Assembly (NCBI RefSeq): GCF_023702635.1
Contig: NZ_CP098455.1
Span: 1-64,000 of the forward strand
DNA length: 64,000 nt
Direction: 5' to 3'
DNA from: Spongiibacter taiwanensis
GTDB lineage: Bacteria; Pseudomonadota; Gammaproteobacteria; Pseudomonadales; Spongiibacteraceae
A model generated the notes under the pieces. That model saw nothing but the letters and a program-made list of their open reading frames with translations. It did not search any database and was not told the DNA's origin. Position numbers and translations under genes: made by a program. Shown here in pieces: positions 46,158-49,768 of the stretch. How positions within the stretch are numbered: the stretch's first letter is position 1; the number at the start of each line of letters is the position of its first letter.

Positions 46158-47882
46158 ATGACGTTGTTCCGCAAGCTGGTTTCCGGCTTCCTACTATCCT
46201 GCTTTTTATCCCAGTCAGTGCTGGCGGATCCGCTCACTGATTTGCTGGACGCGCTGGGGCTGGGTCAACTTGTCGGTCAGGTTCCTGTTATCGGCACAAT
46301 CGGCGCATCCGTGCTTGATCCTAACGGCACCGGCGATAATGACTTTCTCGGCGCCGACGTGCTGAACCCTGAAAATGATCTGGGTGTCACCCTACTGTCA
46401 GGTGAGTTGCTCGGTTTTGGCAACCATACCGGCAGCGGAACGGCCGTGCCCCTGGACTTCCTCGGCTTGAGTGACCTTCTTACCGCCCTGGGTCTTACCT
46501 ACAGTGAGGGCAGCGCGACGCTGGTGCGCGGCCTGCTTGCTCAGGATGGCACGGTGACCAGCCTGGCGTTGACCACAGTTGATGACGTGTTGGCGCTGTT
46601 GGGGGTGAGCGAGCTGGGTTTGACCGATGGCCTGGCGGCAGGTTTGCCGGGGTTAAATGATCAACCCATTGGGCTGGCGATTCTGGCCGAGCCCAACTCG
46701 GGGAATTCTACTTCTGATGGTTTGCTGGGTCTGGCGCTACTGACACCGGGCTCGTCCGGTAATGGTGGCTTGATTGGGGTTTCGGTGTTGTCCGGCGCCA
46801 ACTCGGGTAATGGTAGTGCCGTGGGTATTGCCGTACTCAGCGGCAGCAATTCTGGCAATGGCGGGAATGTGGGCGCCAGTGTGCTGGGCGGCAACAACAG
46901 TGGCAATGGTGGTGATATCGGCGCTGGCGTACTCAACGGCGATAACAGCGGCAATGGCGGCAGCGTCGGCGCAGGGGTATTAAACGGCGATGACAGCGGT
47001 AATGGCGCCGTTGCTGCTGCGGTATTGAATGGCGATGACTCTGGCAACTCCGAATTTATGTCGGTGGCAGCGCTGAATGAAGACAATTCTGGCAATAGCG
47101 ATTTTGCCAGTGTTGCCGCCGTTAACGGCGATGATTCTGGCAATACCGATGTGTTGTCGGTAGCGGCGCTCAATGGTGATAACTCCGGAAACAGTGATTT
47201 TGCTAGCGTCGGTGCGCTCAATGGTGCCAATTCTGGCGCAGGTGGCGTGATCACCGTAGTAGTGGCCAACGCGGCCAATGCCGGTGAGCCCAACAGTGCA
47301 CTGAGTGCCTGTTCATCCACCGGTGGAGTGGGCTGTGGCGACGCAGAATTTCTGCCCATTCTCGAAACCCAAGTCTGCAAAGATAGCGATGGCGACGGTG
47401 TCTGCGATGCTGAAGACGAGTGTGCGGATACCCCGGCGAACACCCCAGTATTCCTGACGGGTTGTCACCTCACAAAAGATGCGCCTCTGGTATTGCGTGG
47501 GGTGAATTTCGAGTTTGATAAATGGGACCTGACGCCGGAATCCATTCCGATTCTCGAGCACGCGGTAAAAGTGTTGGAGGCCAAACCCGAGGCGTTGGTG
47601 GCAGTTGACGGACACACCGATGCCAAGGGCAGCTTCGAATACAATGATCGGCTGTCTTACCGCCGGGCTGGAACGGTTTACGACTATCTGCTTGCGGCGG
47701 GTATCAAAGAAGACCGATTGGTGTTCCGTGGCTATGGTGAGAATGTGCCAGTTGCACCCAACGAAAACGAAGATGGCAGTGACAATCCCGAAGGACGGGC
47801 CGAGAACCGCCGTGTCGAGCTGAACATTCTGGAGCCTGACACCTTCGCCGAGGTGAAAAAGGCAAACCAAGCGGGTCGCTGA
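46158..47882 (+). CDS. Secreted 16-residue-repeat protein with TSP3 segment and OmpA C-terminal domain
   Basis: The 574-residue protein has a signal peptide (cleavage after VLA, residue 23) and a leucine-rich N-terminal part. About twelve S-G-N turns follow at residues 181-359, mostly exactly 16 apart, typified by VGAGVLNGDNSGNGGS. The regular turn spacing suggests a beta-solenoid. Next is a TSP3-like acidic segment with cysteines (CKDSDGDGVCDAEDEC, 407-422) and a C-terminal OmpA domain (about 443-556) with NFEFDKWDLTPES, VDGHTDAKGSFEYNDRLSYRRA and RAENRRVEL, which binds diaminopimelate in peptidoglycan. It is followed by a POTRA-barrel gene. A cell-surface or periplasmic scaffold role is inferred, not known. 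Confidence 0.85.
   Translation: MTLFRKLVSGFLLSCFLSQSVLADPLTDLLDALGLGQLVGQVPVIGTIGASVLDPNGTGDNDFLGADVLNPENDLGVTLLSGELLGFGNHTGSGTAVPLDFLGLSDLLTALGLTYSEGSATLVRGLLAQDGTVTSLALTTVDDVLALLGVSELGLTDGLAAGLPGLNDQPIGLAILAEPNSGNSTSDGLLGLALLTPGSSGNGGLIGVSVLSGANSGNGSAVGIAVLSGSNSGNGGNVGASVLGGNNSGNGGDIGAGVLNGDNSGNGGSVGAGVLNGDDSGNGAVAAAVLNGDDSGNSEFMSVAALNEDNSGNSDFASVAAVNGDDSGNTDVLSVAALNGDNSGNSDFASVGALNGANSGAGGVITVVVANAANAGEPNSALSACSSTGGVGCGDAEFLPILETQVCKDSDGDGVCDAEDECADTPANTPVFLTGCHLTKDAPLVLRGVNFEFDKWDLTPESIPILEHAVKVLEAKPEALVAVDGHTDAKGSFEYNDRLSYRRAGTVYDYLLAAGIKEDRLVFRGYGENVPVAPNENEDGSDNPEGRAENRRVELNILEPDTFAEVKKANQAGR
46674..47243 (+). repeat. Coding tandem repeats, 48-base period
   Basis: The DNA encodes about ten units of 16 codons, with one unit of 15 at residues 281-295. 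Early units end GNGG and later ones GNSD. The DNA copies are diverged rather than identical, so the array is not a fresh slippage product. Confidence 0.8.
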
Positions 47883-47966
47883 GTCAGCAGGCTAATCAAC
47901 TTTAGTCGGGTCGCGCCCGTGCGGCCCAGACTTTTCCACTGCGGAACATTTTAAAGGACTATTTTT

Positions 47967-49721
47967 ATGGCTATTGACCTACCTCCAGTGATCCCGCCTC
48001 AGCTGGCCAAGCTGGAAGTGCTGGAACAGTATGCTTCTGGTGCGACACCTTATGTGGGTATCGTGAACGGTTACGAATTGCGAGTAACCGGGGATCATCA
48101 TCTTACTGATGACGAGATGGCAAAGATTTTCGCCGCCGCAAACACCCCGTCCCAGGCCATTATTCTGATGAACTCTCTGGCATACCGGAAAGGTCACCTG
48201 TTGGTCACCATGCAATATGCGCCCGATGTCAGCATTGTTCATGTGCACGCTGTGCAAGGTACGGTGCGCCGGGTAGAAGGCGAGGGTGTGGCTGAGTATT
48301 TTGAGCTCCTGAAAGGCGACAGTGACCTGACTCGTGCCGACTTTGATCGGGCTCGGGTGATGGCAAATGTGCGCAGTGAGCGCGCTGGTGTCGATTACAC
48401 CGCTCAGTTTGTGGTGGATGAAGGCAACCCCGCGGATGTCACCCTGGTATTTGAAGGGACGCCAGCAGAGGATTACGACCCTACCGATTTAACCCTGAAG
48501 GTCGGCAACCAGGGCAGCCGCTATGTTGGGCGCTATTTTGGTGATGTGGGTCTGAGCCATGAGTTCAAGAACGGCGTGAAGGCGTCAGCGGCCTATCAGA
48601 CGGCGTTCACCGACCTTGGTGAGTCTCGGGGGGGAGAGGATTATCACCGGATACAACTGGGTGCTGATCGTCCTTTTGCTTCGGGGCTTTATGGCATTAA
48701 CGTAAGTCATGTTGAGTACTCCCAAGATTTCGGGAGTGCGGCGACGACGGGCGGATTTCCGGGACTTGTCGATACCGTTAACTCGCTGACATCGCCCCTG
48801 GGGCTTGGCAATTTGGGCGATATCTTGCTCGGTAACTTATCAGGTACTGGCGTCCAAGGTGCCGACCTCGATGCGGATATTAATTCGATTGTGTTGACGG
48901 GTGAACAGGTCCTGGCGAGCGATTTGGATTATCGCTTCAACTTGTTTCAACGCATTGATTACATCGATTCCCAAATCGATGTTAGTCGAACGGGTGTAAT
49001 TGATCCTGATGAAGCCAGTGAATTCGCCCTGCAGGATGAGAAGTACGGTGTCGTTGAGGTCGGTGTGAAGTACTTTGGCGCCAAGGCGCTGGAAGACAAA
49101 TTGATGCGTTGGTCCGCCCAATTTGCGGTTGCCGCCGGTGTCACCGGAGATAGCGGCACCTTGGGTACCTACAAGGAGTTTCGCGAGGCTGCTCTGGATG
49201 AAAACCCAGGCGCCGATGTGCCTGAGGTGGCGCCCGCCGCGCGCACTGCCGAATTTATTGCCCTCAAACCAAAAGTCTCCCTCAAAATACCCACCTCGCC
49301 CGATGGCTCTATTAACGGTAGCTTTGTCGGTCAATTCGCTGATGAGCAGCTGCCCCAGCAACAGCAGTGGGTACTGGGTGGCATGACTACGCTGGCGGCT
49401 TACCTGCCGGGTGTGCTGGTAGGTGATAGTGGTTACTTTGGCCTGGTGAACTACGAGCACGTGTTCCCCGCTGAGGTCGCCAAGATTACCGGCTCAGTTT
49501 TCGCGGAATACGGTACAGCCTGGTATGAAAACGTTTCTGGCAGCCTTGGTGACGAGCGCAGTATTGCCGATGCCGGGGTGCGCGTTCGGGCCGAGTTCGG
49601 CTGGGACGTTACCGTGGACGCGGTCGCGGCTCGAAAGATTGCCGACGACGGCTTTGAGGACGAAGACGAGCTGGACAAGCTGGAAGCGGACTTTTACATC
49701 ACCTTGAAGAAGGTGTTTTAA
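47967..49721 (+). CDS. TpsB-like POTRA / outer-membrane barrel protein (ShlB/FhaC/HecB type)
   Basis: The 584-residue protein resembles two-partner secretion transporters: a proline-rich start (DLPPVIPPQ), a POTRA-type fold (VNGYELRVTGDHHLTDDEM to VHAVQGTVRRVEG, about residues 29-108), then a long beta barrel with alternating strands (YVGRYFGDVGLSHEF, GLYGINVSHVEYSQDF, GYFGLVNYEHVFP) and a C-terminal Phe typical of BAM substrates. No signal peptide is visible: an in-frame TAA lies five codons before the ATG, which has a strong AAAGGA site. It follows the repeat OmpA gene after 84 bases, so it may export or assemble that protein. Ordinary TpsB barrels need Sec export. Confidence 0.8.
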   Translation: MAIDLPPVIPPQLAKLEVLEQYASGATPYVGIVNGYELRVTGDHHLTDDEMAKIFAAANTPSQAIILMNSLAYRKGHLLVTMQYAPDVSIVHVHAVQGTVRRVEGEGVAEYFELLKGDSDLTRADFDRARVMANVRSERAGVDYTAQFVVDEGNPADVTLVFEGTPAEDYDPTDLTLKVGNQGSRYVGRYFGDVGLSHEFKNGVKASAAYQTAFTDLGESRGGEDYHRIQLGADRPFASGLYGINVSHVEYSQDFGSAATTGGFPGLVDTVNSLTSPLGLGNLGDILLGNLSGTGVQGADLDADINSIVLTGEQVLASDLDYRFNLFQRIDYIDSQIDVSRTGVIDPDEASEFALQDEKYGVVEVGVKYFGAKALEDKLMRWSAQFAVAAGVTGDSGTLGTYKEFREAALDENPGADVPEVAPAARTAEFIALKPKVSLKIPTSPDGSINGSFVGQFADEQLPQQQQWVLGGMTTLAAYLPGVLVGDSGYFGLVNYEHVFPAEVAKITGSVFAEYGTAWYENVSGSLGDERSIADAGVRVRAEFGWDVTVDAVAARKIADDGFEDEDELDKLEADFYITLKKVF

Positions 49722-49740
49722 CAACCCGCTGTGTTGCAAA

Positions 49741-49768
49741 AACGGCCCTGATGGGGCCGTTTTTTTTT
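49741..49768. terminator. Rho-independent terminator after the barrel gene
   Basis: AACGGCCC and GGGCCGTT form an 8-base stem with a TGATG loop, followed by nine T on the plus strand. It also lies between the convergent barrel and pdxJ genes. Confidence 0.93.

Follow-up and report, generated by a model that had tools for sequence, protein, structure and literature searches.

The gene pair and its products

Two neighbouring genes at positions 46158 to 49721 of the DNA analysed here may form a two-protein surface system. This DNA, below called the window, comprises positions 1 to 64,000 (64,000 nucleotides) of contig NZ_CP098455.1 of Spongiibacter taiwanensis (assembly GCF_023702635.1), and every feature described lies on its forward (+) strand. 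The first gene (46158–47882) encodes a repeat protein of 574 residues with a signal peptide, S-G-N repeats, an acidic cysteine segment and an OmpA domain, as read from the list of open reading frames (ORFs), Pfam and a repeat count. The second (47967–49721) encodes a TpsB-like POTRA/barrel protein of 584 residues, recognised from its ORF, a structure model and fold matches, and it carries no signal peptide by the rule described below. The two ORFs are separated by 84 bases, exactly as in a first-pass annotation made from the sequence alone, which took the pair for an unusual assembly or scaffold system in which the barrel threads or seats a repeat fibre linked to the cell wall. A terminator-like hairpin with a T run follows the pair (49738–49764), and the scan, which covered 4.3 kb, found no such site between the two genes, in keeping with the single shared terminator of that annotation. 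The hairpin call is weak evidence by itself, since these 4.3 kb contain 10 terminator-like sites compared with 5.2 in shuffles. As for an origin on a mobile element, searches of phage and plasmid collections gave no match at E≤1e-5.

The repeat protein, here called the partner, begins with a signal peptide visible by eye (residues 1–23, 46158–46226; putative cleavage site). Its central region (residues 180–361, 46695–47240) has about 16 residues per turn and contains 11 exact copies of S-G-N between residues 181 and 343, or 12 when an S-G-A is counted; the spacings are 19, 16, 16, 16, 16, 16, 15, 16, 16 and 16, eight of the ten being 16. Among 10000 residue shuffles none reached 11 copies (maximum 5) and none reached eight spacings of 16 (maximum 1). 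The repeats probably form a solenoid. In a low-confidence model strands recur every ~16 residues, but this model is poor (mean predicted local distance difference test score, pLDDT, 43.7; predicted template modelling score, pTM, 0.31), so the strands are no proof of such a fold. The C-terminal OmpA peptidoglycan-binding domain (residues 451–540, 47508–47777) matches PF00691 with an E-value of 4.2e-18 and 65.9 bits, above the Pfam cut-off of 27.2. The best NCBIfam matches, to a PA1041-type anchor lipoprotein and to TraB, a protein of outer-membrane exchange, span residues 407–561 and score far under their curated cut-offs (107.5 against 250 and 99 against 700). Signal peptide, S-G-N turns mostly 16 residues apart and OmpA domain had all been claimed before, and all are seen again here. 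The acidic cysteine segment ahead of the OmpA domain (residues 407–436, 47376–47465) had been called TSP3-type; the likeness is visible by eye only, and no Pfam TSP3 model matches at E≤1.

The second gene product is, by its predicted structure, a TpsB-like Omp85 barrel. Recognition from sequence failed: the Pfam ShlB model (PF03865) gives an E-value of 0.0024 and 17.8 bits, below its cut-off of 22.7, no NCBIfam model matches at E≤1, phmmer against the PDB finds nothing at E≤1, and a profile search gave merely E-values of 0.54 (2x8x, Tlr1789) and 0.70 (CdiB). Structure prediction was therefore required. The AlphaFold model, built on an alignment of 52 sequences including that of the window, has a mean pLDDT of 90.6 and a pTM of 0.85; for residues 1–20 the pLDDT is ~90. 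It contains two POTRA domains, with limits read from the strand list (residues ~28–104, 48048–48278, and ~109–166, 48291–48464), and a barrel in which 16 strands can be counted (residues 173–583, 48483–49715). Omp85 proteins are built in this way, with one or more POTRA domains ahead of a 16-strand barrel, and the arrangement is seen in the model and in its structural matches. The top Foldseek matches are CdiB (E-value 1.8e-23) and then FhaC; in VIA-align, CdiB gives a Z-score of 31.0 over 459 residues (root mean square deviation, rmsd, 5.2), FhaC 29.0 over 426 residues (rmsd 5.9) and BamA at most 25.5. The FhaC alignment begins at model residue 34, facing FhaC residue 60, which leaves just about 27–33 residues ahead of the first POTRA domain. 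The FhaC/ShlB appearance proposed earlier is thus weak by sequence and clear in the model. Among distant relatives, the barrel of locus L124 passes the ShlB cut-off (30.2 bits) and that of L149 narrowly fails (22.1).

A family of barrels that begin without a signal peptide

The textbook view is that bacterial outer-membrane barrels enter the periplasm via Sec, by means of a cleavable signal peptide. The barrel of the window begins differently. An in-frame TAA (47952–47954), its first base 15 bases 5' of the ATG, excludes an in-frame upstream signal peptide, and a Shine-Dalgarno-like AAAGGA (47953–47958) stands ahead of the ATG; together they mark the ATG at 47967 as the natural start. From there the protein opens with a motif that is conserved in the family alignment, MAIDLPPVIPPQ (47967–48002), of the form M-A-[IV]-D-L-P-P-x-x-P-P; the clade-wide form is M-[APS]-[IV]-x-[LF]-P-P-x-x-x-P. 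Position 2 is Ala in 89, Pro in 12 and Ser in 7 of 110 family members, position 3 Ile in 89 and Val in 17, and position 4 Asp in 79; the prolines at positions 6, 7 and 11 occur in 105, 98 and 101.

These 110 distinct members, the window's included, remain from 113 ORFs once the truncated duplicates L001, L002 and L006 are removed. By a simple test of hydrophobicity, charge and cleavage site, which is not SignalP, none of the 113 ORFs (0/110 distinct) begins like a signal peptide, either at the motif or upstream of it; the rule has four hits at internal Met codons (+8/+12), which were set aside. The same rule is positive in 33 of 39 generic TpsB hits used as controls. One of the negative controls, L148, was placed there by a cut-off and belongs to the clade, and it too has no signal peptide. 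In the remaining five, the N-terminus is hydrophobic by eye (L145, L114, L133) or the gene runs off the locus (L144, L139).

Could this be an ordinary two-partner secretion (TPS) system in which the signal peptide of the transporter has been missed, through a wrong start codon, a frameshift or recoding? The simplicity of the rule speaks for it, as does the presence of signal peptides in the bacterial Omp85 proteins known to us. The DNA around the starts speaks strongly against it. As in the window, an upstream stop lies within 20 codons of the start in 67/110 members, and a Shine-Dalgarno-like motif precedes the start in 94/110, compared with 305 of 2260 windows drawn at random from these loci. 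The start codon (ATG in 98, TTG in 6, GTG in 5) falls at the same alignment column in 109/110, the exception, L147, being misplaced by the alignment. The codons of the motif vary synonymously among members, implying that selection acts on the protein. Finally, a scan of all three frames for a signal-peptide-like ORF reaching the barrel start gave only one case among 113 ORFs, and the gap between partner and barrel can be as short as 16 bases (L070, L071). We consider a missed signal peptide very improbable.

Wider sampling gives the same picture. Searching 38 related genomes with the barrel gave 73 matches over its full length and one fragment; all 73 match from residue 1, and in the 33 family loci examined every barrel starts M-A-I and is preceded by no hydrophobic stretch. 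Named genomes were also scanned and yielded 54 loci, 52 with Met at the start of the match; L099 is a fragment there, and in L093 the reported match is preceded by the TTG at which that barrel begins. The same kind of start is shared by all 41 barrels (40 loci, with two in L242) from the order of Stenotrophobium. A DNA pattern for M-A-I-D-[LF]-P-P was looked for in 23 genomes and occurs 52 times, in 16 of them; 51 of the occurrences are known barrel starts, and the other is antisense to an ATPase gene that adjoins a cellulose-synthase-like gene (gene names by eye). A reversed control pattern has no match in the same 23 genomes. We therefore reject the idea of a general export motif: this one is specific to the barrel family.

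The absence of a signal peptide would also suit a barrel that acts away from its own outer membrane, for example one that is released and inserts from outside. We give this little credence. The last residue is aromatic in 99/110 barrels, and such a BAM-type C-terminus, together with the POTRA domains, suits normal periplasmic delivery. In addition, no exporter-like cluster is apparent by eye among the neighbours that recur in at least 4 of 40 loci of one order (L203–L242). A third conserved gene serving as exporter was likewise sought by eye in these clusters and none was seen; they comprise housekeeping genes, antisense ORFs, the secreted partner and an OmpA-type protein.

The members belong to Spongiibacteraceae, the order of Stenotrophobium, Salinisphaeraceae, Acidithiobacillus, Acetobacteraceae and further families. 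Of the 38 related genomes 21 have the barrel, comprising all 21 of the same family as the window and none of the 17 from other families. The 54 loci of the named-genome scan are from Zhongshania, Spongiibacter, Neomelitea and Litorivivens and, more distantly, from Salinisphaeraceae, Abyssibacter, Stenotrophobium, Solimonas, Nevskiaceae, Acidithiobacillus and Acetobacteraceae. A search of 85 genomes from the order of Stenotrophobium gave matches in 44; on our reading of the match rows, 41 have full-length members (46 in all) and three have generic TpsB proteins only. Elsewhere full-length members are rare, being found in 5/369 genomes of the class and 2/398 of the phylum (both counts include the window's genome) and in 3/147 of the family of genome G509.

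A maximum-likelihood tree was built from the last 400 residues of 95 rows, with a midpoint root and with 56 clade rows dereplicated from the 113 (L001 included). The 56 signal-peptide-less rows and L148 lie on one side of a branch with 100/100 support, and the 38 other generic rows lie opposite; as L148 carries the control label, the tree tool counts two changes and not one. On this alignment the signal-peptide-less barrels are one clade, a divergent branch of the TpsB-like proteins.

The same clade differs at the lid lock. Omp85 proteins share two motifs, (V/I)RG(Y/F) in loop L6 and (F/G)xDxG in strand 13, and the lid lock is made by the Arg of the first and the Asp of the second (PMC4490367). 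In the window loop L6 instead carries LGGMTTLAAYLPGVLVGDSG (49374–49433; alignment), with no arginine, and strand 13 carries FAEYG (49500–49514; model and alignment), with Glu for Asp; in the model these sites are on a loop (residues 459–487) and a strand (505–519). The clade form of the L6 motif is L-x-A-Y-L-P-G, the window barrel having L-A-A-Y. The L6 Arg is found in 3/57 clade rows compared with 37/38 control rows, and the strand-13 acid is Glu in 55/57 clade rows, whereas in the controls it is Asp in 32/38 and Glu in 4/38. Judged from these alignments, the clade has altered both sides of the lock, and so offers a natural test of the purpose of its salt bridge.

Partner proteins across the family

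What do these barrels act on? A same-strand ORF lies just upstream of the barrel in 33/33 family loci examined, and in 48/54 loci from the named genomes the upstream ORF has a signal-peptide-like start by a loose rule. Conservation of the two genes as neighbours, on which the first-pass annotation had staked its reading, is therefore borne out. The window genome itself holds four barrels, each with an exported-type protein directly upstream. Among the 41 barrels from the order of Stenotrophobium, 32 follow a signal-peptide-like ORF at a distance of at most 700 bases and nine do not. The constant theme, as far as gene order can tell, is an exported protein plus a barrel, tightly paired in the family of the window and more loosely outside it.

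The partner of the window and those of the 48 loci gave 49 proteins for domain scans. Five loci had no signal-peptide-like upstream ORF by the rule (L088, L090, L093, L094, L099) and one had scant upstream DNA (L087), and these were left out; for L084 the partner start used is an internal Met. None of the 49, the window's included, matches the Pfam TPS model at E≤0.001, as the earlier annotation had noted for the window. Two distant relatives provide a link to TPS. In G509 the gene directly downstream of the barrel, on the same strand (L152:9198-11684), matches TIGR01901 with an E-value of 1e-9 and 38.2 bits compared with a cut-off of 29.1. In G764, of the same genus, a match in the same place (L147:1-1332) has an E-value of 2.7e-7 and 30.4 bits. 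TIGR01901 is the filamentous haemagglutinin N-terminal domain. In G724 (L148) the available sequence ends ~145 bases 3' of the barrel. The position of two distant barrels directly upstream of TPS-domain proteins suggests that TpsB-like translocation by the clade barrels is likely.

The OmpA domain is the most frequent feature of the partners, occurring in 45/49. It is absent from L091, L095, L096 and L097, three of which (L091, L095, L097) are long S-G-N proteins. In L150 there are three genes, for an S-G-N-like protein, a separate OmpA protein and the barrel, and in L149 the order is barrel, Gly/Asp-rich exported protein and separate OmpA protein. From these partners and separate genes OmpA looks like a module that can be fused, separate or absent, and the peptidoglycan anchor, which the first-pass annotation had made the defining feature of the system, does not hold as such; its TpsB-like barrel, conserved neighbours and missing TPS domain do.

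The frequency of OmpA, fused in 45 partners or encoded next door in L150 and L149, could also point to a barrel that is no translocase at all, but an outer-membrane socket or assembly partner, with a periplasmic repeat/OmpA protein bridging the peptidoglycan and the POTRA domains. Loss of the lid-lock Arg, which FhaC needs, would fit such a role. The TPS-domain proteins that directly follow two distant barrels do not fit it, nor do the OmpA-less partners (L091, L095, L097), nor a fold nearest to CdiB and FhaC, and we regard the socket as unlikely, though a serious alternative.

Several further features of the pairs were seen. In the window genome a gene (G000:C1:3640176-3641072; L013:677-1573) some 2 kb ahead of the second barrel encodes an exported-type protein of 298 residues made up largely of GLDGLPGLDALP-like repeats. 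In L088 and L090, too, genes on the other strand downstream of the barrels encode proteins with GLDGLP/GIDGLP near their ends. The partner ORF of L065 (L065:155-4963) is up to 1603 residues long, with many long near-identical repeats ahead of its OmpA domain; here the type of repeat has been swapped and barrel and OmpA kept. In eight loci of the order of Stenotrophobium (L205, L207, L209, L210, L212, L235, L240, L241) the upstream gene encodes not a repeat protein but a small exported-type protein of 119–127 residues, and these are very small candidate substrates. Two genomes each have two repeat-protein/barrel pairs in tandem, at G011:C1:2252664-2258604 and at G002:C7:62548-68464, and Solimonas aquatica (L242 / L096) has two signal-peptide-less barrels in tandem, each after its own small Ser-rich exported-type protein. 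The earlier annotation did not mention the missing signal peptide of the barrel, the changed lid-lock motifs or the distant relatives beside TPS-domain proteins.

Proposed mechanism and comparison with known systems

We favour, with some reserve, a divergent two-partner system for surface display as the explanation of the pair, with a Sec-exported partner tethered to peptidoglycan and a barrel that lacks a classical signal peptide. The partner, with its visible signal peptide, would be exported by Sec, and its OmpA domain would stay in the periplasm on the peptidoglycan. The barrel, if it is an outer-membrane protein, must take a non-classical route across the inner membrane. BAM would then insert it in the outer membrane, as its aromatic last residue suggests. 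The POTRA domains may capture the partner, whose repeat region would then travel through the pore to the cell surface, a step suggested by the fold, the neighbourhood and the TPS-domain neighbours. The folded OmpA domain could halt transport, giving a tethered surface fibre.

A number of observations weigh against this surface-display view. The window partner has no TPS domain, and its repeat region is modelled with low confidence (pLDDT about 30–45). The TPS neighbours in G509 and G764 match no Pfam family, Pfam TPS included, at E≤0.1. In L094, from an Acetobacteraceae metagenome-assembled genome, a TPS-type protein (32.8 bits) lies ~1.5 kb away on the opposite strand and is below the Pfam TPS cut-off (19.4 against 33.5), and the barrel copy of this locus is interrupted by an internal stop. 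Beyond the family of the window the pairing is looser and may in part reflect chance, and eight of the 32 upstream ORFs in the order of Stenotrophobium look by eye like unrelated genes. Moreover, the clade has no L6 Arg, and the VRGY motif of L6 to which it belongs is called essential for FhaC activity (PMC5422565).

A wider proposal, which we put forward tentatively and hold to be somewhat short of probable, is that the whole of this old barrel family needs no signal peptide to cross the inner membrane, and that the conserved N-terminus serves as a new kind of signal for export or targeting and is linked to a redesigned pore that lacks the usual lid lock. The family comprises at least 110 transporter-like proteins that are consistently without a signal peptide, yet keep their POTRA domains and have a mostly aromatic, BAM-type C-terminus. 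If the proposal is true, then either Sec accepts a quite different N-terminus or another route exists. The literature searched, which excludes most subscription journals and preprints, has no description of signal-peptide-less Omp85/TpsB proteins or of such a gene pair.

How does the pair compare with known systems? With the OmpA family (the PA1041-type lipoprotein and TraB) the partner shares its C-terminal OmpA domain, the matched stretch including the cysteine segment, but its N-terminal part is the S-G-N repeat region. With BamA and TamA the barrel shares the Omp85 fold, but it has two POTRA domains and no lid-lock Arg, and BamA is a weaker structural match (Z at most 25.5 compared with 31.0 for CdiB). 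HMW1 and HxuA are TpsA proteins whose C-terminal anchor in the periplasm keeps them at the surface (PMC5422565). The proposed system shares the principle of holding a translocated region by a periplasmic domain at its C-terminus, whereas the window partner has no TPS domain and its anchor would be an OmpA domain, not a disulphide loop.

The closest likeness is to the TpsB proteins FhaC and CdiB, which provide the best structural matches, with two POTRA domains and a 16-strand barrel, and with a neighbouring gene that encodes an exported repeat protein; in two distant members a TPS-domain protein is encoded directly after the barrel. In contrast to TpsB, the window barrel is below the Pfam ShlB cut-off, has only about 27–33 residues before its first POTRA domain, has no signal peptide, carries L-x-A-Y-L-P-G in place of (V/I)RG(Y/F) on L6, and has Glu for the strand-13 Asp. 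As signal peptide, L6 Arg and strand-13 Asp are all missing, it is not assigned to TpsB. We conclude that the window barrel is TpsB-like in fold and neighbourhood, yet is no member of TpsB.

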